Below are positions 54,420 through 63,429 of a stretch of 64,000 nt of DNA, one piece after another. The notes beneath the pieces are model-generated. The model ran no database searches and was not told the origin of the DNA. It worked only from the letters and a program-made list of their open reading frames with translations. Both the position numbers and the translations under genes were made by a program. The stretch is from contig NZ_JOHR01000011.1 of NCBI RefSeq assembly GCF_000719775.1, positions 1 through 64,000 of the forward strand, written 5' to 3'. This DNA comes from Streptomyces sp. NRRL F-5135. Its GTDB lineage: Bacteria > Actinomycetota > Actinomycetes > Streptomycetales > Streptomycetaceae. Position 1 is the stretch's first letter, and each line of letters opens with the position of its first letter.

Positions 54420-54504
54420 CGCTCCGCGCGCGGTTCCCGCCGGGCGGCGGGACCGGGTGAGTGGGCCCGGGCGGTGTGGTGCCGGTGCCCGCCGGGCGGC
54501 GGGG

Positions 54505-54602
54505 CCCGGTGGGTGGTGCCCGGTGGGTGGTGCCCGGTGGGTGGTGCCCGGTGGGTGGTGCCCGGTGGGTGGTGCCCGGTGGGTGGTGCCCGGTGGGTGG
54601 TG
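54505..54602. repeat. 14-bp minisatellite, seven perfect copies
   Basis: Seven identical head-to-tail copies of CCCGGTGGGTGGTG (54505-54518 through 54589-54602). The plus strand has regularly spaced GGG and GG runs, so it could fold into G-quadruplexes. It lies between glpX and the convergent WhiB gene. Confidence 0.97.
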
Positions 54603-54606
54603 CCGG

Positions 54607-54706
54607 GGGCGCCCGTGACGTTCCGGCCAGACACGTCCGCCGACGAGTGAGCCGAAGGGGCGCGCCGCTGTCGAAAGGGAGGCTGTGCTTGAAAAGGGGG
54701 TCAGCC
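54607..54706. repeat. Dispersed intergenic element, copy B
   Basis: 54607-54681 matches 137-213; the tail 54686-54706 matches 273-320 with the middle part missing. As with copy A, it ends at the stop codon of a minus-strand gene (TGA at 54701-54703). Confidence 0.75.
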
Positions 54707-56286: not shown

Positions 56287-57954
56287 ATGCCAGAGTTTGC
56301 GTACTCCGACCTGCTTCCGCTGGGAGAGGACACCACGCCCTACCGGCTGGTGACCGCCGAAGGCGTCTCGACCTTCGAGGCCGACGGGCGTACCTTCCTC
56401 AAGGTCGAGCCGGAGGCGCTCAGGACGCTCGCCGCCGAGGCCATGCACGACATCTCGCACTACCTCCGCCCCGCCCACCTCGCGCAGCTCCGGCGGATCG
56501 TGGACGACCCGGAGGCGTCCTCGAATGACAAGTTCGTGGCGCTCGACCTCCTGAAGAACGCGAACATCGCAGCGGCCGGCGTGCTGCCCATGTGTCAGGA
56601 CACCGGCACGGCGATCGTCATGGGCAAGCGCGGGCAGAACGTGCTGACCGGGGGGAGCGACGAGGAGGCCTTGTCGCACGGCATCTACGACGCGTACACG
56701 AAGCTGAACCTGCGCTATTCGCAAATGGCTCCGCTCACCATGTGGGAGGAGAAGAACACCGGCTCGAACCTGCCCGCGCAGATCGAGCTGTACGCGACCG
56801 ACGGCGGCGCCTACAAGTTCCTCTTCATGGCGAAGGGCGGCGGTTCCGCCAACAAGTCGTTCCTCTACCAGGAGACCAAGGCGGTCCTCAACGAGACCTC
56901 CATGATGAAGTTCCTGGAGGAGAAGATCCGTTCGCTGGGTACGGCGGCATGCCCCCCGTACCACCTGGCGATCGTCGTGGGCGGCACGTCCGCGGAATTC
57001 GCGCTCAAGACCGCCAAGTACGCCTCGGCGCACTACCTGGACGAACTGCCCACCGAGGGCTCGCCCACCGGGCACGGCTTCCGGGACAAGGAGCTGGAGG
57101 AGCAGGTCTTCGAGCTGACGCAGAAGATCGGCATCGGCGCCCAGTTCGGCGGCAAGTACTTCTGCCACGACGTGCGGGTGGTGCGCCTGCCGCGGCACGG
57201 CGCGTCGCTGCCCGTCGCGATCGCCGTGTCCTGCTCGGCGGACCGCCAGGCCGTCGCGAAGATCACCGCCGAGGGCGTCTTCCTGGAGCAGTTGGAGAAG
57301 GACCCGGCGCGGTTCCTCCCGGACACCACGGACGAGCACCTGGACGAGAGCGGGGACGTCGTACGGGTCGACCTGAACCGCCCGATGGACGAGGTCCTCG
57401 CCGAGCTGACGAAGTACCCCGTGAAGACGCGGCTCTCGCTCACCGGCCCGCTGGTCGTCGCCCGCGACATCGCCCACGCCAAGATCAAGGAACGGCTCGA
57501 CGCGGGCGAGGGCATGCCGCAGTACCTGAAGGACCACCCGGTCTACTACGCGGGCCCGGCCAAGACGCCGGAGGGTTACGCCTCGGGGTCGTTCGGCCCG
57601 ACGACGGCCGGCCGGATGGACAGCTACGTGGAGCAGTTCCAGGCGGCCGGCGGTTCGAAGGTCATGCTCGCCAAGGGCAACCGTTCGAAACAGGTCACCG
57701 ATGCCTGTGGGACGCACGGCGGCTTCTACCTCGGCTCGATCGGCGGCCCCGCCGCCCGGCTCGCGCAGGACTGCATCAAGAAGGTCGAGGTCCTGGAGTA
57801 CGAGGAGCTGGGCATGGAGGCCGTCTGGAAGATCGAGGTGGAGGACTTCCCCGCGTTCATCGTCGTGGACGACAAGGGCAACGACTTCTTCACCGAGCCC
57901 GCACCGGCCCCGACATTCACCAGCATCCCGGTCCGGGGCCCCGGCCTGTCCTGA
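56287..57954 (+). CDS. Class I fumarate hydratase ([4Fe-4S])
   Basis: 555 aa. ATG 56287 is preferred (GAGGA about 9 bases upstream, product [12 protein letters not shown]); ATG 56278 is possible. Cluster Cys in [10 protein letters not shown], later Cys near [10 protein letters not shown] and [10 protein letters not shown]; alpha and beta domains are fused as in bacterial FumA/FumB. Substrate residues in [12 protein letters not shown]. Interconverts fumarate and malate and is oxygen-sensitive, in contrast to FumC encoded 4 kb downstream. Confidence 0.95.
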
Positions 57955-57984
57955 GTCACCCCTAATACTCCAGCAGCGGTGTAC

Positions 57985-58030
57985 CAACAGCCTCCCAGAC
58001 CCCTCGGCGTCGCCGGGGGGTCTGCTGTTG
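57985..58030 (+). terminator. Terminator after class I fumarase
   Basis: CAGACCCC (57996-58003) pairs with GGGGTCTG (58017-58024), extended inward by CGGCG/CGCCG and outward by CAACAG/CTGTTG. It marks the left border of the accessory island. Confidence 0.75.
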
Positions 58031-58114
58031 CGCGCCTTGGCGGCGCTATGAGTCCCCCGCTCCCGTGGCTTAAAGGGCACCCTTGACGCCAACGCGGCAG
58101 CATCGGAAGGGTCC

Positions 58115-58143
58115 GTGCGTAGAAGTCCGTGCAATCCGCGTAG
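58115..58143. promoter_or_regulatory. Candidate operator, GTGCGTAGA / GTGCAAT-CGTAG motif
   Basis: Two related half-sites (GTGCGTAG and CGTGCAATCCGCGTAG) lie 15 bases upstream of the first island gene. The second resembles CGTGCAATTTCGTAG at 59766-59780, which precedes the second group of island genes. Likely bound by the island's own DUF5753 regulator. TTGACG (58083-58088) with AAGGGT 18 bases later is a possible promoter. Confidence 0.45.
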
Positions 58144-58157
58144 CCCGGGAGGCTGCT

Positions 58158-58619
58158 GTGTCGCTACGGTTCATCGCCAAGGACCCGAACACGGACGGGG
58201 CGAACTGCCCCACGGTGTGGGTTGACGAGGAGAAGCAAGAGATCGTGTTGCAGGGTTGGACGGTGGATGAGGCGACGCGCGCCGAGTGCCTGAAGACCGG
58301 CCCCATGCCCGACAGTGAGACCGTCGTCCGGCTGCCTATGCGTATGGTCGCCGCCATCAGGGATGGCTTGCAGTGCCGCAGACGGCCCCACCGTTCAGTG
58401 AGCTGCTGGCGAACTGCCAGCGATCCGCCGTGCACCTGGAGATGCGCGACTTCTACGACGACCCCGACGAAGCTCCGCGCGTGGCCGCGTGGAAGGCCGG
58501 GCATCGGGCGGACCCGAACGACCGAGCGTCCTGGTGGCGTCCCTGGCTCGACATGGTGTCCGAGGCGGTCTCCCGTGGCGTCGTCATCCGCCGCGCCCGG
58601 ATCGTCTCCGAGCCGGTGA
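58158..58619 (+). CDS. Small island protein with an out-of-family tail overlapping the next gene
   Basis: 153 aa from GTG with GGGAGG upstream. The first ~73 residues (SLRFIAKDPNTDGANCPTVW, QEIVLQGWTVDEATRAECL, ETVVRLPMRMVAAIRDG) look like a small protein that commonly precedes DUF6879 genes. Beyond this the frame turns into Arg/Pro/Thr-rich text that lies antiphase to the DUF6879 coding sequence for 247 bases. The family normally stops near the DUF6879 start, so a lost stop codon or frameshift around 58370-58385 is likely. Function unknown. Confidence 0.6.
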   Translation: MSLRFIAKDPNTDGANCPTVWVDEEKQEIVLQGWTVDEATRAECLKTGPMPDSETVVRLPMRMVAAIRDGLQCRRRPHRSVSCWRTASDPPCTWRCATSTTTPTKLRAWPRGRPGIGRTRTTERPGGVPGSTWCPRRSPVASSSAAPGSSPSR

Positions 58620-58897
58620 GCGAGTACACCCGCTACCTCTACGACGGCACGTTCACCAACATCGCCGCCGGTGAGCAGATCCGTTGGCTTCCCCGCCGGA
58701 ACGCGTCGGATCTGGCACTCCCCGGCAATGACTTCTGGTGCTTCGATGACCGACTGGTGAGGTTCGGCTACTTCTCCGGTGAGGGCGTGTACCTCGGCGA
58801 CGAAGTGGACGACCGCCCCGAGGTGGTCAAGCTGTGCGCCTCGGCGTTCGAAGCCGTCTGGGACCGGGCCGTTCCGCACGACCGCTACAGGATCTGA
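58373..58897 (+). CDS. DUF6879 family protein
   Basis: 174 aa from GTG 58373 with GGGATGG upstream. Features RSAVHLEMRDFY, VIRRARIVSEPVSEYTRYLY, NIAAGEQIRWLPRRNASDLA, LPGNDFWCFDDRLVRFGYF and a C-terminal ASAFEAVWDRAVPHDRYRI. Such proteins are common beside DUF5753 regulators in actinobacteria, and some relatives are described only as effector-like; no activity is known. It ends 15 bases before the regulator gene, so they form one unit. Confidence 0.85.
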   Translation: MPQTAPPFSELLANCQRSAVHLEMRDFYDDPDEAPRVAAWKAGHRADPNDRASWWRPWLDMVSEAVSRGVVIRRARIVSEPVSEYTRYLYDGTFTNIAAGEQIRWLPRRNASDLALPGNDFWCFDDRLVRFGYFSGEGVYLGDEVDDRPEVVKLCASAFEAVWDRAVPHDRYRI

Positions 58898-58912
58898 GAA
58901 CACACAGCACCA

Positions 58913-59761
58913 ATGGCCCGTTCCCCTTCGTCCAGCGTCCAGGCGGCCCGTGAGGCGCTTGCAGCACGCCTTCGGGATATTCGCCTGGACGCTGGCCTGA
59001 AGGCCCGCGAGGTGGCCGTACAGGCTGGCTGGCACCCCTCCAAGGCGAGTCGGCTGGAGAACGCTGTAACGCCCCCTTCGGACGCCGACATTCGCGATTG
59101 GTGCCGCATCTGTGGAGCCGACGATCAAGCAGCCGACTTGATCGCCGCGTCTCGGTCGGCAGAGTCGATGTACGTCGAGTGGCGACGGCTCCAGCGCACC
59201 GGGCTACGCCGACTCCAGGAGTCGTACGTACCGCTCTTCGAGCGCACCCGAACCTTCCGAATCTACTGCTCCAACGTGGTGCCCGGTCTGCTCCAGACAC
59301 CCGCGTACGCAACCGCGCTGCTGGGTGAGATCACCGACTTTCGGCAAACGCCCAATGACGTCATGGAGGCCGTGGCCGCCCGCATGGATCGGGCGCGTGT
59401 TCTCCGCGAAGGAGATCACCGATTCGCCATCCTCGTTGAAGAAGCCGTCTTGCGGTACTGCATCGGCGACGCCGGAGTCATGGCCGGGCAACTGGGCCAT
59501 CTGCTGTCGATCATGTCCTTGCCGGCCGTCTCCCTCGGAGTCGTGCCGTTTAGCGCCTCCCGGCACATGTGGCCGCTGGAAACCTTCTCGATCTACGACA
59601 GCGCGCAAGCTCAGGTGGAGCTGCTGACAGCGGCTGTGAACGTGACAGCGCCATCGGAGATCGAGCAGTACGCGAGAGCCTTCGAACGACTGTCGGAAGC
59701 GGCTGTCTACGGGGCCACGGCACGAACCTTGATCGCGAAGGCCATCGAGGCACTCGGCTAA
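58913..59761 (+). CDS. XRE-type regulator with DUF5753
   Basis: 282 aa. HTH at about 14-70 (ALAARLRDIRLDAGLKAREV, AVQAGWHPSKASRLENAV) and DUF5753 from ~100 (YCSNVVPGLLQTPAYATALL, RFAILVEEAVLRYCIGDAGV, LPAVSLGVVPFSASRHMWPL). Only weak translation signals, probably coupled to the DUF6879 gene. No TTA codon. Likely represses or activates the island through the CGTGCAAT/CGTAG motifs on either side. Confidence 0.9.
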   Translation: MARSPSSSVQAAREALAARLRDIRLDAGLKAREVAVQAGWHPSKASRLENAVTPPSDADIRDWCRICGADDQAADLIAASRSAESMYVEWRRLQRTGLRRLQESYVPLFERTRTFRIYCSNVVPGLLQTPAYATALLGEITDFRQTPNDVMEAVAARMDRARVLREGDHRFAILVEEAVLRYCIGDAGVMAGQLGHLLSIMSLPAVSLGVVPFSASRHMWPLETFSIYDSAQAQVELLTAAVNVTAPSEIEQYARAFERLSEAAVYGATARTLIAKAIEALG

Positions 59762-59765
59762 CGCG

Positions 59766-59790
59766 CGTGCAATTTCGTAGAACTTCGTAG
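59766..59790. promoter_or_regulatory. Candidate operator with TTCGTAGA direct repeat
   Basis: CGTGCAATTTCGTAGAACTT and onward contains TTCGTAGA twice, 10 bp apart (one helical turn), directly after the regulator stop codon. TAACGT (59812-59817) downstream could be the -10 of the next unit, so the repeat would sit at the -35 zone. Confidence 0.45.
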
Positions 59791-59849
59791 AGCCCCGATG
59801 TGGCCCGTTCCTAACGTGGCCTGCACGACCAGAGGAGGGGCGAGCGATC

Positions 59850-60056
59850 ATGGCGAGCGACGCAAGAGCCCGACTGTCTGAGGCGTTCGACGTGTTCGGC
59901 AGCAACGGCATGCTGTTGGTGTTCCACGACTCGGATGATCCGTTGGGAACGACGGCTGAGGGGGCGGACGCTCCGCCTCATTCGGGAGTGGGCCGTACGA
60001 GCCTGCGGGAACGGGTCGCCGAGGCCAATGCTCGGAGCCGTGGCGAAATCCTCTGA
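59850..60056 (+). CDS. Small hypothetical protein (island)
   Basis: 68 aa, ATG with a strong GAGGAGGGG ribosome site. Begins ASDARARLSEAFDVFGSNGM, then LLVFHDSDDPLGTT and a C-terminal helix SLRERVAEANARSRGEIL. No motif recognised. Its TGA overlaps the next ATG by one base (TGATG), so the two are translated together. Confidence 0.65.
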   Translation: MASDARARLSEAFDVFGSNGMLLVFHDSDDPLGTTAEGADAPPHSGVGRTSLRERVAEANARSRGEIL

Positions 60057-60259
60057 TGGCGCGCACCGAACCGCGCCGCCCCAGAACGATCACTCAGAAT
60101 CTGTGGTCGCACGGGGAGTACTGCGGAACGTGTGCCGGACACCGCGAAATCTGGTGCCCCCTCTGCTTCGGCTTCGAGGGTTGCTCGGGCTGCAACAACC
60201 GGCGGAAAGTGCTTTGCCCTACGTGTGCCGGCGGTCAGCTCCTGCCCAACGTCTGTTGA
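60056..60259 (+). CDS. Small protein with four CxxC motifs (zinc-ribbon-like)
   Basis: 67 aa. CGTC, CPLC, CSGC and CPTC are spaced through the protein, together with a His and an Asn-Cys ending. The layout resembles two zinc ribbons or the Cys-rich part of DnaJ. Basic N-terminus (MARTEPRRPR). Coupled to the preceding gene. May bind zinc and act as a partner or nucleic-acid-binding protein; no family assigned. Confidence 0.7.
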   Translation: MARTEPRRPRTITQNLWSHGEYCGTCAGHREIWCPLCFGFEGCSGCNNRRKVLCPTCAGGQLLPNVC

Positions 60260-60403
60260 TCATTTCTCGCTGATCTCCGCCCCTGTCGGGTCTGACCCGA
60301 TCCCCTCTCCCCCATGGCTCGGAATCCCGGTGGGGGCGGGCAACACCCCGTTCCGCATACAGCGGGACGGTTCAAGAGGCACCATCCAACTGGAGGTAAC
60401 CAG

Positions 60404-60541
60404 ATGCGCAAGCAGTGGCTCACGGCCGAAGACCCCGGCAACCCCCAGGACGACAGCGACAGCGGCAACAAGCACGGCGGCGGCGGGTCCGACGAGGGCG
60501 GCAACACGAACGACGGCCAGGGACCGGCGGACGGCCGCTGA
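60404..60541 (+). CDS. 45-aa Asp/Gly/Asn-rich peptide, candidate RiPP precursor
   Basis: ATG with GGAGG and an 8-base gap, a near-perfect ribosome site. The peptide has a short basic/aromatic start (MRKQWLTAEDPGNPQ) then an acidic, Gly-rich tail with DDSDSG, SDEGGN, TNDGQG and PADGR. It has no Cys and few Ser/Thr, so it does not suit lanthionine chemistry, but it has two Asp-Gly pairs, the sequence most prone to succinimide formation. Its TGA is followed at once by the ATG of a PIMT-like methyltransferase. Assignment as a precursor is inferred from size, composition and context. Confidence 0.6.
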   Translation: MRKQWLTAEDPGNPQDDSDSGNKHGGGGSDEGGNTNDGQGPADGR

Positions 60542-61720
60542 ATGACCGAGCAGCAAGGAACGGACGCCAGCCCCGAGCGGCTGGCGTCCGCGCTGATGGA
60601 GAAGGGCGCCCTGACGTCTGACTGGCTTCCCGCCTTCAAGCGGGCGCCGCGCCATCTGTTCGTACCGGATGTGATCTGGCCGGGTACTGCGGGCGGCAAC
60701 CGGCAGAAGAGCCGGATCATCCGTTCCGAGGACTCTCGGGCGTGGTGGGACGCCGTTTACACGGACGCGCCGATCACGACGCAATGGGACGACGGCGCCC
60801 ACACGGGTCCCGATAAGGGCAAGATCCCTTCGTCTTCCAACTCTATGCCCACCATGGTCTTTTCGATGCTCGACGCCCTGAGCGTCCATGAAGGCCATCG
60901 GGTTTTGGAGATCGGGACGGGTACCGGCTGGAACGCCGCGCTGCTGTCGCACCGCGTAGGCCCTGAGAACCTCGTCACGGTCGAGGTGGACGAAGCCACG
61001 GCGGCGGACGCCAGGAAGCGTCTTCAGGACGCGGGGTTCGTACCGCTGGCCGTGGTCGGTGACGGTGCAGCCGGATTCGGGCTGGAGGCCCCGTACGACC
61101 GGGTGATTGCGACGTGCTCGATTGGCCAGATCCCTTACGCCTGGATCGAGCAGACGAAGCCGGGCGGGGTGATCGTGGCCCCTTGGGGGCCGACGTACGG
61201 CGGAGAAGCGGTCGTGAGGCTCACGGTGAAGTCGGATGGATCGGCGTCGGGGAAGTTCCTCGGGTCCTCGGCGTTCATGCGGCTTCGTGCCCAGCGCACG
61301 GAGCGAAAACACGTTCGGGAGTACCTGAAGGGCAAGCCGTGGCCAGCCGACGGCGTCAAGTCGACCACGGCGCTCTCCCCGGATGACGTGGGCGACTGGC
61401 GCGTCATGTTCGCCATCGGGGTTCAGGTGGCCGACGCATTCCCTTGGGTGGAGACATACAAGGACGGCTCTTACACCCTGTGGCTTCGAGACACGGCGGT
61501 CACGTCGTGGGCTACGGCCGACTTCGAGAAGGATCGGACAGAGTTCGCAGTCGTGCAGTCTGGTCCCAGGAAACTGTGGGACGAGGTCGAAAAGGCGTAC
61601 CGCTGGTGGGAGAAGCAAGGTTGTCCCGGCTTCGAACGATTCGGGCTCACGGCCACTGTGGACGGCGAAACCATATGGCTGGATGAACCAGGAAACCCAG
61701 TTCCTCCGATTCTCGGCTAA
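60542..61720 (+). CDS. PIMT-like O-methyltransferase with C-terminal extension
   Basis: 392 aa. The core resembles protein-L-isoaspartate O-methyltransferase: substrate-side SSSNSMPTMVFSMLDAL, SAM motif I VLEIGTGTGWNAALL (near residue 121), acidic loop VTVEVDEATAADARKRL, and YDRVIATCSIGQIPYAWIEQ, KPGGVIVAPWG. Ordinary PIMT is about 210-230 aa; here ~170 extra residues follow, as in methyltransferases of RiPP clusters (FxLD-type, ATP-grasp-type and aspartimide-forming OlvSA-like groups). It starts on the base after the peptide gene's stop and has no ribosome site of its own, so it is coupled to it. Likely modifies that peptide at Asp. Confidence 0.82.
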   Translation: MTEQQGTDASPERLASALMEKGALTSDWLPAFKRAPRHLFVPDVIWPGTAGGNRQKSRIIRSEDSRAWWDAVYTDAPITTQWDDGAHTGPDKGKIPSSSNSMPTMVFSMLDALSVHEGHRVLEIGTGTGWNAALLSHRVGPENLVTVEVDEATAADARKRLQDAGFVPLAVVGDGAAGFGLEAPYDRVIATCSIGQIPYAWIEQTKPGGVIVAPWGPTYGGEAVVRLTVKSDGSASGKFLGSSAFMRLRAQRTERKHVREYLKGKPWPADGVKSTTALSPDDVGDWRVMFAIGVQVADAFPWVETYKDGSYTLWLRDTAVTSWATADFEKDRTEFAVVQSGPRKLWDEVEKAYRWWEKQGCPGFERFGLTATVDGETIWLDEPGNPVPPILG

Positions 61721-61734
61721 ACAAGAACCACCAG

Positions 61735-61760
61735 GGGCACCCGGCGCCGGCCGGGTGCCC
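61735..61760 (+). terminator. Terminator at the right border of the island
   Basis: Perfect 10-bp stem GGGCACCCGG/CCGGGTGCCC (61735-61744 and 61751-61760) with a 6-nt loop, 15 bases after the methyltransferase stop. Confidence 0.8.
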
Positions 61761-61817
61761 GCTGAGTTCGAAGGACTAGATCGGAGCCACCGATGTTTCC
61801 TCGCTCCCGGCCTCGCT

Positions 61818-61886
61818 CCGGTGGTCACCCTCGGGTGGCCACCGGGGAAGCGGGAACACTGGGGACGGCACACACGCTGTCCCCAG
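61818..61886 (+). promoter_or_regulatory. Two hairpins in the fumC leader
   Basis: 61818-61830 pairs with 61833-61845 (one G-U), and CTGGGGAC (61859-61866) pairs perfectly with GTCCCCAG (61879-61886). The second ends about 9 bases before the AAGGAGG ribosome site of fumC. They may be a terminator and a leader structure controlling fumC translation. Confidence 0.5.
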
Positions 61887-61908
61887 GGATCCCCAAGGAG
61901 GCACGACC

Positions 61909-63429
61909 ATGACGACGGACGAGAGCCGGCCCCAGGCGAACCCGCCCGCGAACCCCCCGGCGGACACGAACGCGAACACGAACACGCCGGCGAACCCGCC
62001 CGCGAACACGCCGGCGGGCACGAGCCCGGACACCCGCACGGACGTCGGCGAGTACCGCGTCGAGCACGACTCCATGGGCGAGGTACGGGTCCCCGCGCAC
62101 GCCAAGTGGCGGGCGCAGACGCAGCGCGCCGTGGAGAACTTCCCGATCTCGGGCGCCCGCCTGGAGCGCGCCCACATCGAGGCGCTCGCCCGGATCAAGT
62201 CCGCCGCGGCCAAGGTCAACGCCGAGCTCGGGGTGGTCGACGCCCAGGTCGCGGACGCCATTCGGCAGGCGGCGGCCGAGGTGGCGGAGGGCCGCTGGGA
62301 CGACCACTTCCCGGTGGACGTCTTCCAGACGGGCTCCGGTACCTCTTCGAACATGAATACCAATGAGGTGCTCGCCACGCTCGCCTCCGAGCGCCTCGGC
62401 CGGCCGGTGCACCCCAACGACGAGGTGAACGCCTCGCAGAGCTCCAACGACGTCTTCCCGTCCTCCATCCACATCGCCGCGACCGCCGCCGTCACCCGCG
62501 ACCTGATCCCCGCGCTGGAGCACCTGGCCGCGGCCCTGGAGCGCAAGGCGGAGGAGTTCCGCGACGTCGTCAAGTCGGGCCGTACGCACCTGATGGACGC
62601 CACGCCCGTCACACTGGGCCAGGAGTTCGGCGGCTACGCCGCCCAGGTCCGGTACGCGGTGGAGCGGCTGACCGCCTCGCTCCCCCGCCTCGCCGAGCTG
62701 CCCCTGGGGGGCACGGCGGTGGGCACCGGCATCAACACCCCGCCCGGCTTCTCGGCCGCCGTCATCGCCGAGGTCGCCCGGTCGACCGGACTGCCGCTGA
62801 CCGAGGCGCGCAACCACTTCGAGGCACAGGGCGCCAGGGACGGGCTGGTGGAGACCTCGGGACAGCTGCGTACGCTCGGCGTCTCCCTGACCAAGATCGC
62901 CAACGATCTGCGCTGGATGGCGTCCGGCCCGCGCACGGGCCTCGCGGAGATCAGCCTGCCCGACCTCCAGCCGGGCTCCTCGATCATGCCCGGCAAGGTC
63001 AACCCGGTGATCCCGGAAGCGGTCCTCATGGTCGCGGCCCAGGTCACCGGCAATGACGCGACGGTCGCCGCGGCCGGCGCGGCCGGTAACTTCGAGCTGA
63101 ACGTGATGCTCCCCGTCATCGCCAAGAACCTGCTGGAGTCCGTACGGCTGCTGGCCAACGCCTCCCGCCTGCTGGCGGACCGTACGGTCGACGGCATCGT
63201 CGCCCACACCGAGCGGGCCAGGCAGTACGCGGAGTCGTCGCCGTCCGTCGTCACCCCGCTGAACCGGTACCTCGGCTACGAGGAGGCCGCGAAGGTCGCC
63301 AAGAAGTCCCTGGCCGAGGAGCGCACCATCCGGGAGACGGTGCTGGCCGAGGGCTATGTGGAGCGCGGCGTCCTCACGCTGGAGCAACTGGACGAGGCGC
63401 TGGACGTGCTGCGCATGACCCGGCCCTGA
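61909..63429 (+). CDS. fumC: Class II fumarate hydratase
   Basis: 506 aa. Signature [11 protein letters not shown], plus [46 protein letters not shown] and [11 protein letters not shown]. Iron-free, oxygen-stable homotetramer acting in the TCA cycle. Usual length is ~460; the extra ~45 N-terminal residues are Pro/Ala/Asn/Thr repeats ([20 protein letters not shown]), encoded by a short degenerate repeat. ATG 61909 has AAGGAGG upstream, so the extension is translated. Confidence 0.95.

Follow-up and report, generated by a model that had tools for sequence, protein, structure and literature searches.

The window analysed here is a stretch of 64,000 nt from Streptomyces sp. NRRL F-5135 (contig NZ_JOHR01000011.1, positions 1 to 64,000). 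Close to its end lie two adjacent genes, i.e. a small gene for a putative precursor peptide and a gene for a methyltransferase related to protein-isoaspartate methyltransferases (PIMTs), which are referred to as the cassette (Table 1). The translation of the small gene is MRKQWLTAEDPGNPQDDSDSGNKHGGGGSDEGGNTNDGQGPADGR, 45 amino acids with 7 Asp, 2 Glu, 11 Gly, 4 Asn and no Cys (Gly 24.4%, Asp 15.6%, Pro 6.7%; net charge −5). Asp-Gly pairs are found at positions 37-38 and 43-44, and the TGA stop codon directly abuts the ATG of the methyltransferase gene. The initial annotation had described a 45-codon gene with a strong ribosome-binding site, an Asp/Gly/Asn-rich and Cys-free peptide with two Asp-Gly pairs, and the immediate adjacency of the two genes, and all three descriptions were confirmed. 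A scan for promoters and terminators gave nothing above chance.

Table 1 Features of the cassette and its surroundings in the window, and phage-associated cassettes in other records
Feature	Position	Strand	Basis
Precursor peptide gene	60404..60541	+	45 aa and TGA; homologous peptides 5′ of the enzyme in relatives
GGAGGT ribosome-binding site of the precursor gene	60392..60397	+	Read from the sequence; 6 nt from the ATG
PIMT-like O-methyltransferase (PAMT type), 392 aa, with C-terminal domain	60542..61720	+	
GTGTG S-adenosylmethionine (SAM)-binding loop, residues 125-129	60914..60928	+	Invariant in 30/30 aligned enzymes
WEKQGCP, residues 356-362, fits WXXXGXP	61607..61627	+	Sequence; motif from PMC13001092
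Codon of Asp37 (N-D-G), predicted aspartimide/isoaspartate site	60512..60514	+	Asp in 49/49 intact precursors
Codons of Asp16-Asp17, acidic pair of QDDS, second-best candidate site	60449..60454	+	Asp17 in 22/22
Helix-turn-helix (HTH)-DUF5753 regulator, associated, probably regulatory	58913..59761	+	Pfam DUF5753 2.4e-38; PHROG 9908
DUF6879 gene before the regulator, associated in some loci only	58373..58897	+	Pfam DUF6879 4.1e-57
Phage/prophage cassettes beside lysis genes	L081 16959-18364; L082; L083; L084; L128; L132 8001-9176; L053 7909-9221		

Matches to the enzyme, most of them distant, were found in 191 of the 199 sampled genomes of the genus of the window. Forty loci were fetched with their flanks, and in 39 of them a small precursor-type open reading frame (ORF) lies 5′ of the enzyme gene (the ORFs were chosen by eye, and non-ATG start codons were written as M). 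In the fortieth, L048 (contig C133 of genome G048), the enzyme is intact and the precursor is cut to its C-terminal part, so that this locus is either a decaying or an altered cassette. The precursors of the branch to which the window belongs are Gly-rich, acidic and Pro-poor, with the pattern QDDS..HGGGG..NDG. A protein search with the peptide yielded 22 proteins at E ≤ 0.01, the named organisms being Streptomyces and one Kitasatospora. A profile built from 22 aligned precursors had 49 hits, distributed over 44 of the 392 genus genomes searched, and 46 of these hits have E < 1e-6. Inspection of 45 of these strong hits (all except G073:C752; three weak hits with E values of 0.003-0.006 were also left out) revealed a methyltransferase match beside the precursor in every case, of which three were partial or broken, i.e. 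L185 (enzyme split over frames), L189 (partial match) and L190. The initial annotation had proposed conserved adjacency as a check, and the conserved peptide was indeed present next to the close homologues of the enzyme. In L190 (contig C1 of genome G012), an HGGGG precursor lies in one open frame with an enzyme that lacks the first ~83 residues, which could reflect a deletion, a fusion that occurs naturally or an error of assembly.

Family-wide, 25 of 150 sampled genomes, from 7 of 17 genera, contain the precursor (28 places, of which two were already known and nine were inspected). The nine inspected loci, from five genera of the family, all contain an enzyme match, split over frames in L214, and a precursor, which was recognized by the HGGG pattern in eight cases and read by eye in L208 (HGGSG). 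In a class-wide sample the precursor occurred in 4 of 394 genomes, all four of the genus of the window, and a scan of genome contigs gave three distant loci only. Pairwise codon identity in the core (15 loci) is 0.706 at position 3, versus 0.937 at position 1 and 0.935 at position 2. Because the third codon position varies most and homologues of the peptide precede homologous methyltransferases in many genomes, the precursor ORF is not a chance ORF.

The Pfam model PCMT covers residues 72-248 of the enzyme (E 2.3e-28), and a C-terminal domain of about 144 residues extends beyond this match. The PIMT-like core and the C-terminal extension seen in the initial annotation were therefore retained, but not the estimated length of the latter, ~170 residues. 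The structure 1DL5 could be aligned over 307 residues, including a C-terminal domain like that of TmPIMT, and the enzyme is a close fold match to repair PIMTs. The NCBIfam model TIGR04188 matches residues 14-377, i.e. nearly the whole length (1.4e-99). The sole match of the enzyme in PADLOC was mad2, restricted to the methyltransferase core (5.8e-15).

To place the enzyme, a tree of 55 enzymes was calculated with a quick method (approximate likelihood-ratio support, SH-aLRT, without bootstrap; the fragments L079 and L080 were left out). The 32 enzymes that accompany HGGGG-type precursors group in a single clade (SH-aLRT 99), and the 16 enzymes with Pro-rich precursors are its sister (SH-aLRT 99). 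The precursors were assigned by eye to the groups A, B, C and P, of which neither A nor B is a single clade in the tree. In group A, which includes the window (15 loci, 105 pairs), the identity of the core is 92.8% compared with 66.7% for the enzyme and is the higher value in 105 of 105 pairs. The nonsynonymous (dN) and synonymous (dS) substitution rates of the core are 0.066 and 0.73, respectively, with a median dN/dS of 0.11 over the same pairs, and the peptide is under selection at the amino-acid level. When the leader is included, precursor identity is higher than enzyme identity for 100 of the 105 group A pairs and 16 of the 21 group B pairs, in contrast to 11 of 105 pairs in the Pro-rich group. 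At enzyme identities of 0.5-0.6, the identities of whole precursors are 77.9% in group A (30 pairs), 61.8% in group B (12 pairs) and 39.2% in the Pro-rich group (71 pairs; the precursor of L077 was extended upstream for this comparison). The short N-terminal part of the precursor is variable. As these peptide-versus-enzyme counts differ between the groups, the constant peptide is a trait of the HGGGG branch, and it is strongest in group A.

The Pro-rich, type I-like pairs (L062-L077, from the genus of the window) have the architecture and a C-terminal Asp-Gly in common with the cassette. They differ from it in the sister position of their enzymes and in that their precursors diverge faster than the enzymes. 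Further PIMT-homologue loci of one genome, G000, are L077 on contig C23, with a Pro-rich, type I-like precursor, and L003 on contig C2.

All 49 intact precursors, which represent 33 distinct cores, have an Asp at the position of Asp37, followed by Gly in 43, Thr in two, Asp in two, Asn in one and Glu in one. This count covers 50 loci, of which the eroded L048 is the one miss and some probably represent the same prophage (e.g. L128/L186). The underlying pattern was written after the sequences had been viewed and required DD and HGG, so that its count of Asp17 is not independent. In the alignment, Asp37 corresponds to the Asp of PDG in the Pro-rich precursors. The second Asp-Gly pair is replaced by Glu in L047 and missing from most precursors of group B. 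Thus, of the two pairs highlighted in the initial annotation, Asp37-Gly38 is conserved and Asp43-Gly44 is not broadly conserved. A Gly following Asp is a context that favours aspartimide formation, and Asp37 in N-D-G is the likeliest predicted target. The coupled genes would yield a linear peptide of 45 amino acids, on which the methyltransferase, with SAM, would place a methyl ester at one Asp side chain, most likely that of Asp37. The backbone amide of Gly38 would then attack the ester to form an aspartimide (−18 Da), which would slowly hydrolyse, mostly to isoaspartate.

Type I pamtides, or imiditides, are two-gene systems of a ~45-aa precursor rich in Gly, Pro and Asp and a PIMT homologue (PMC10787088, PMC13001092). 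Methylated and aspartimide species have been shown for SpaM acting on SpaA (Lee et al. 2023, PMC10787088) and for NmaM acting on NmaA (Zhu and Link 2026, PMC13001092). The cassette shares with SpaA/SpaM of Streptomyces sparsogenes and NmaA/NmaM of Nonomuraea maritima the order of the two genes, the Cys-free, Gly/Asp-rich precursor of ~45 aa, the C-terminal domain of the enzyme (the PCMT match ends at residue 248 of 392), the highly conserved Asp near Gly/Pro, and a methyltransferase as the sole modifying enzyme. WXXXGXP, the motif described for RiPP-associated PIMTs (RiPP, ribosomally synthesized and post-translationally modified peptide; PMC13001092), is likewise shared. The reported composition of type I precursors is 17.3% Gly, 10.2% Asp and 16.8% Pro (PMC10787088); the window precursor agrees in length, Gly and Asp, and only weakly in Pro. 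Compared with the descriptions of type I pamtides, it is Pro-poor, negatively charged, and has a near-invariant HGGGG core. In contrast to what is described for SpaA/SpaM and NmaA/NmaM, the window branch represents a distinct enzyme clade, with phage carriage and a linked HTH regulator (see below).

Two other classes were compared. Type II pamtides (cysimiditides) also have a PIMT homologue as the sole modifying enzyme, but their precursors contain two zinc-binding CXXCXGXG motifs (PMC13001092), which are absent from the Cys-free window peptide. Small tetracysteine peptides 5′ of PIMT homologues, apparently type II pamtides, were observed in Actinomadura (L079, L080). The methyltransferases of group 13 graspetides, which TIGR04188 represents, are homologous to the enzyme over nearly its whole length; unlike in these graspetides, the TIGR04188 score lies below the cut-off and none of the 15 tested window ORFs is an ATP-grasp gene. 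These ORFs (51.4-64 kb, Pfam) comprise the cassette enzyme, regulators, fumarases, housekeeping genes and unmatched ORFs. They include no other class-defining RiPP enzyme, which bears out the earlier statement that no lanthionine, ATP-grasp or lasso enzyme is nearby.

Based on gene pairing, enzyme family and domain, the conserved Asp, selection on the peptide, mobility and regulator linkage, we consider it probable that the genes form a two-gene imiditide/type I pamtide cassette under an upstream HTH regulator. The predicted chemistry, methylation and aspartimide formation, is inferred from the characterised relatives. The initial annotation as a candidate aspartimide/isoaspartate RiPP is supported by the pairing, the enzyme and the conserved Asp, with the chemistry by analogy. 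It had not recognized the peptide; the system itself branches within a class that was described in 2023, and the cassette is a member of this class. The original imiditide paper is reportedly that of Cao et al. 2023.

A tblastn search of phage records with the enzyme retrieved 12 records with a match, and eight of these, representing five phages, encode a full-length enzyme with 56-58% identity. The five phages (Austintatious, PapayaSalad, Alderaan, Ididsumtinwong and Bioscum; Austintatiousvirus) are all from S. venezuelae ATCC 10712. In the four that were fetched, the gene 5′ of the enzyme encodes a precursor with QQDD..HGGGGSETSGGNSSDGSGP (phage and plasmid precursors were read from the DNA). 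A tblastn search of phages and plasmids with the precursor gave no hits, presumably owing to low-complexity filtering, since the phage precursor missed its own record as well. In these phages the cassette lies between endolysin-side genes and genes for an HTH regulator or integrase, and a serine integrase is annotated in two of the four records. Alderaan was predicted by software to be temperate, yet lacks an integrase and may have turned lytic; the word methyltransferase does not occur in the available text on this phage (Hardy et al. 2020, PMC7650747). Among Streptomyces phages, 26 records have a related capsid gene; the 18 of them other than the eight above gave no enzyme match, and in two of these phages the endolysin is followed by other genes. 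The cassette is carried by phages of S. venezuelae ATCC 10712, and related phages of other hosts are without a match.

Of 49 cassette loci compared, eight contain a homologue of the phage gene gp22, gp23 or endolysin, and these eight probably represent six distinct elements. Genes for an endolysin and a tail fibre accompany an A-type precursor in L132; in L053, a C-type precursor is found with an endolysin gene and a head-morphogenesis gene. The 37.8-kb contig of L060 encodes the phage capsid protein as well. The phage settings of the cassette therefore number three or more, at least two of them prophage-like and distinct from Austintatiousvirus, and they include three subtypes of precursor. 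A plasmid-borne cassette was also found (enzyme identity 67.7%). Its genomic positions indicate that the cassette is mobile, being accessory cargo of temperate-group Streptomyces phages and residing also at chromosomal and plasmid sites. In the window, it is located between two unlike fumarase genes 3.95 kb apart (57954-61909). The fumarase genes are within 1.3 kb of each other in 19 of 29 relatives tested, and in the other ten a search of the 1.5-kb flank did not recover the first gene, which suggests that the fumarase-flanked spot is a variable insertion site. A tRNA gene is annotated before the precursor in two phage records and was considered as an attachment site, but was rejected because ARAGORN finds none there. 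Phage carriage of PIMT-type RiPP enzymes is not reported in the literature searched, and the main texts of PMC10787088 and PMC13001092 contain no words beginning with phage. On the viral contigs L137, L141 and L138, distant PIMT homologues are preceded by small ORFs of other kinds, which are rich in Lys, acidic or contain CxxC motifs, and these are possibly further phage-borne pairs.

An HTH regulator is encoded within 3 kb upstream of the cassette in 32 of 42 loci and downstream in none. The regulators belong to two exchangeable families, HTH-TPR (tetratricopeptide repeat; 18 of 42) and DUF5753 (14 of 42, including the window). To the extent of our searches, the literature has no description of the branch with its constant core, its carriage by phages and its linked regulator, and precursors of the branch may stand uncommented in the supplementary lists of the class papers.

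Several observations weigh against an imiditide cassette with this setting and target. The score of the enzyme with TIGR04188 is 333.9 bits, under the curated cut-off of 380. Strong positive charge and charge-based recognition are reported as typical of type I imiditides (PMC13001092); the window precursor has a negative net charge, the enzymes are acidic too, and charge complementarity between precursor and enzyme was not found in 39 pairs (Spearman 0.21, p 0.19). Docking was attempted by folding peptide and enzyme as one chain with AlphaFold2 (AF2) and was abandoned, since the enzyme was modelled well and the peptide was not placed on it (block predicted local distance difference test (pLDDT) values of 23-39, residues 1-50); consequently, the target Asp is without structural support. 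The regulator is absent from 10 of 42 loci, the extreme constancy of the peptide is a trait of group A, and the window copy is not in a recognizable prophage. Within the branch, the conservation of Asp17, which is present in all 22 aligned precursors and lies inside the most conserved block, equals that of Asp37, and tolerance of residues other than Gly at n+1 is known (PMC13001092). The methyltransferase might accordingly act at Asp17 or Asp16 of QDDS. We regard this as rather unlikely, because QDDS is absent from the Pro-rich type I precursors, which share the C-terminal Asp-Gly aligned with Asp37, and because the residue after Asp37 is mostly Gly (43 of 49). The close fold match to repair PIMTs would also fit a repair or regulatory enzyme with another target, to which the small gene would be a coupled leader or partner, and conserved immediate adjacency is compatible with a translational leader. 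This explanation is very improbable: the peptide is selected at the amino-acid level, precursor type tracks enzyme clade, and the two-gene logic has been shown enzymatically for SpaA/SpaM (PMC10787088). Clustering with ordinary repair PIMTs, which would have contradicted the initial annotation, is itself unlikely in view of the C-terminal domain, WXXXGXP and the clade of precursor-paired enzymes, in a tree without repair PIMTs.

The greater challenge now is to link aspartimide RiPPs to biological function, as a review points out (PMC13001092). We tentatively propose that the phage-borne imiditide is a near-invariant aspartimide peptide, carried time and again by temperate-group Streptomyces phages and by mobile sites of the chromosome, that might work within the lysogenic cell, either to block competing phages or as an input to the lysis-lysogeny switch. 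Intracellular action on behalf of the element or lysogen, e.g. superinfection exclusion, is our favoured guess because no dedicated exporter or peptidase was recognized for the cassette. A constant peptide that occurs on phages, a plasmid and at chromosomal sites, following a phage-type regulator, would suit an activity inside the cell, and the near-invariance of the core makes a conserved partner likely. The intracellular anti-phage lanthipeptides are likewise Streptomyces RiPPs that are thought to act inside the cell and have a connection to phages (PMC12360287); unlike these, the cassette would have a different chemistry, and its anti-phage activity is a guess.

Secretion, with the product serving as an antimicrobial or interspecies factor, is unlikely, although RiPPs are often antimicrobial, the N-terminal part of many group A precursors ends in GG, as leader peptides can, and transporter genes are near some cassettes (a cluster with major facilitator superfamily (MFS) proteins at a distance of kilobases in 5 of 44 loci). 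Among the 25 gene clusters compared, in which most neighbours are unannotated, none is recurrent enough to suggest an exporter or peptidase dedicated to the cassette, and the core of group A is more constant than would be expected of an arms-race peptide. A signalling unit is a distinctly less probable alternative, in which the modified peptide would bind the neighbouring HTH regulator as its ligand, as happens in phage arbitrium and other RRNPP systems. Unrelated TPR proteins score equal or higher, near-identical cores occur with both DUF5753 (L039, L044, L191) and HTH-TPR regulators (L192, L202), the regulator of the window is itself not of the TPR type, and no export signal is evident in the peptide by eye. 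If the phage-borne, intracellular role were true, it would be the first biological role for imiditides. The branch would also place PIMT-type RiPP enzymes among the accessory cargo of phages. With its near-invariant core and isolated phages that carry the cassette, the branch offers a handle on imiditide function.

The remaining neighbours are less regularly associated. Besides the enzyme, the precursor and the regulators, no family occurs in more than 8 of 44 neighbourhoods (25 gene clusters; most neighbours are unannotated). DUF6879 reaches this number, and the order DUF6879-HTH recurs in L039, L044, L057, L059 and L061. The small ORFs at 59850-60056 and 60056-60259 were considered as members of the cassette and rejected, as neither has a homologue in the other loci compared. 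The latter encodes a 67-aa protein with several CxxC pairs, resembling a DnaJ zinc finger, and matches PHROG 28723 (6.8e-14); this Cys-rich protein is found in 16 of 199 genomes and not beside other cassettes. In PADLOC, 78 neighbour proteins from 19 loci, chosen by hand from 274 called in 37 loci, gave matches to 31 families at 1e-8, including AbiU, AbiLi and AriA; as these counts have no baseline, no defence island is claimed. At 54461-54650 the window contains a short tandem DNA repeat, which is read as GGWCPVGGARWVVP-like units in the listed ORFs.
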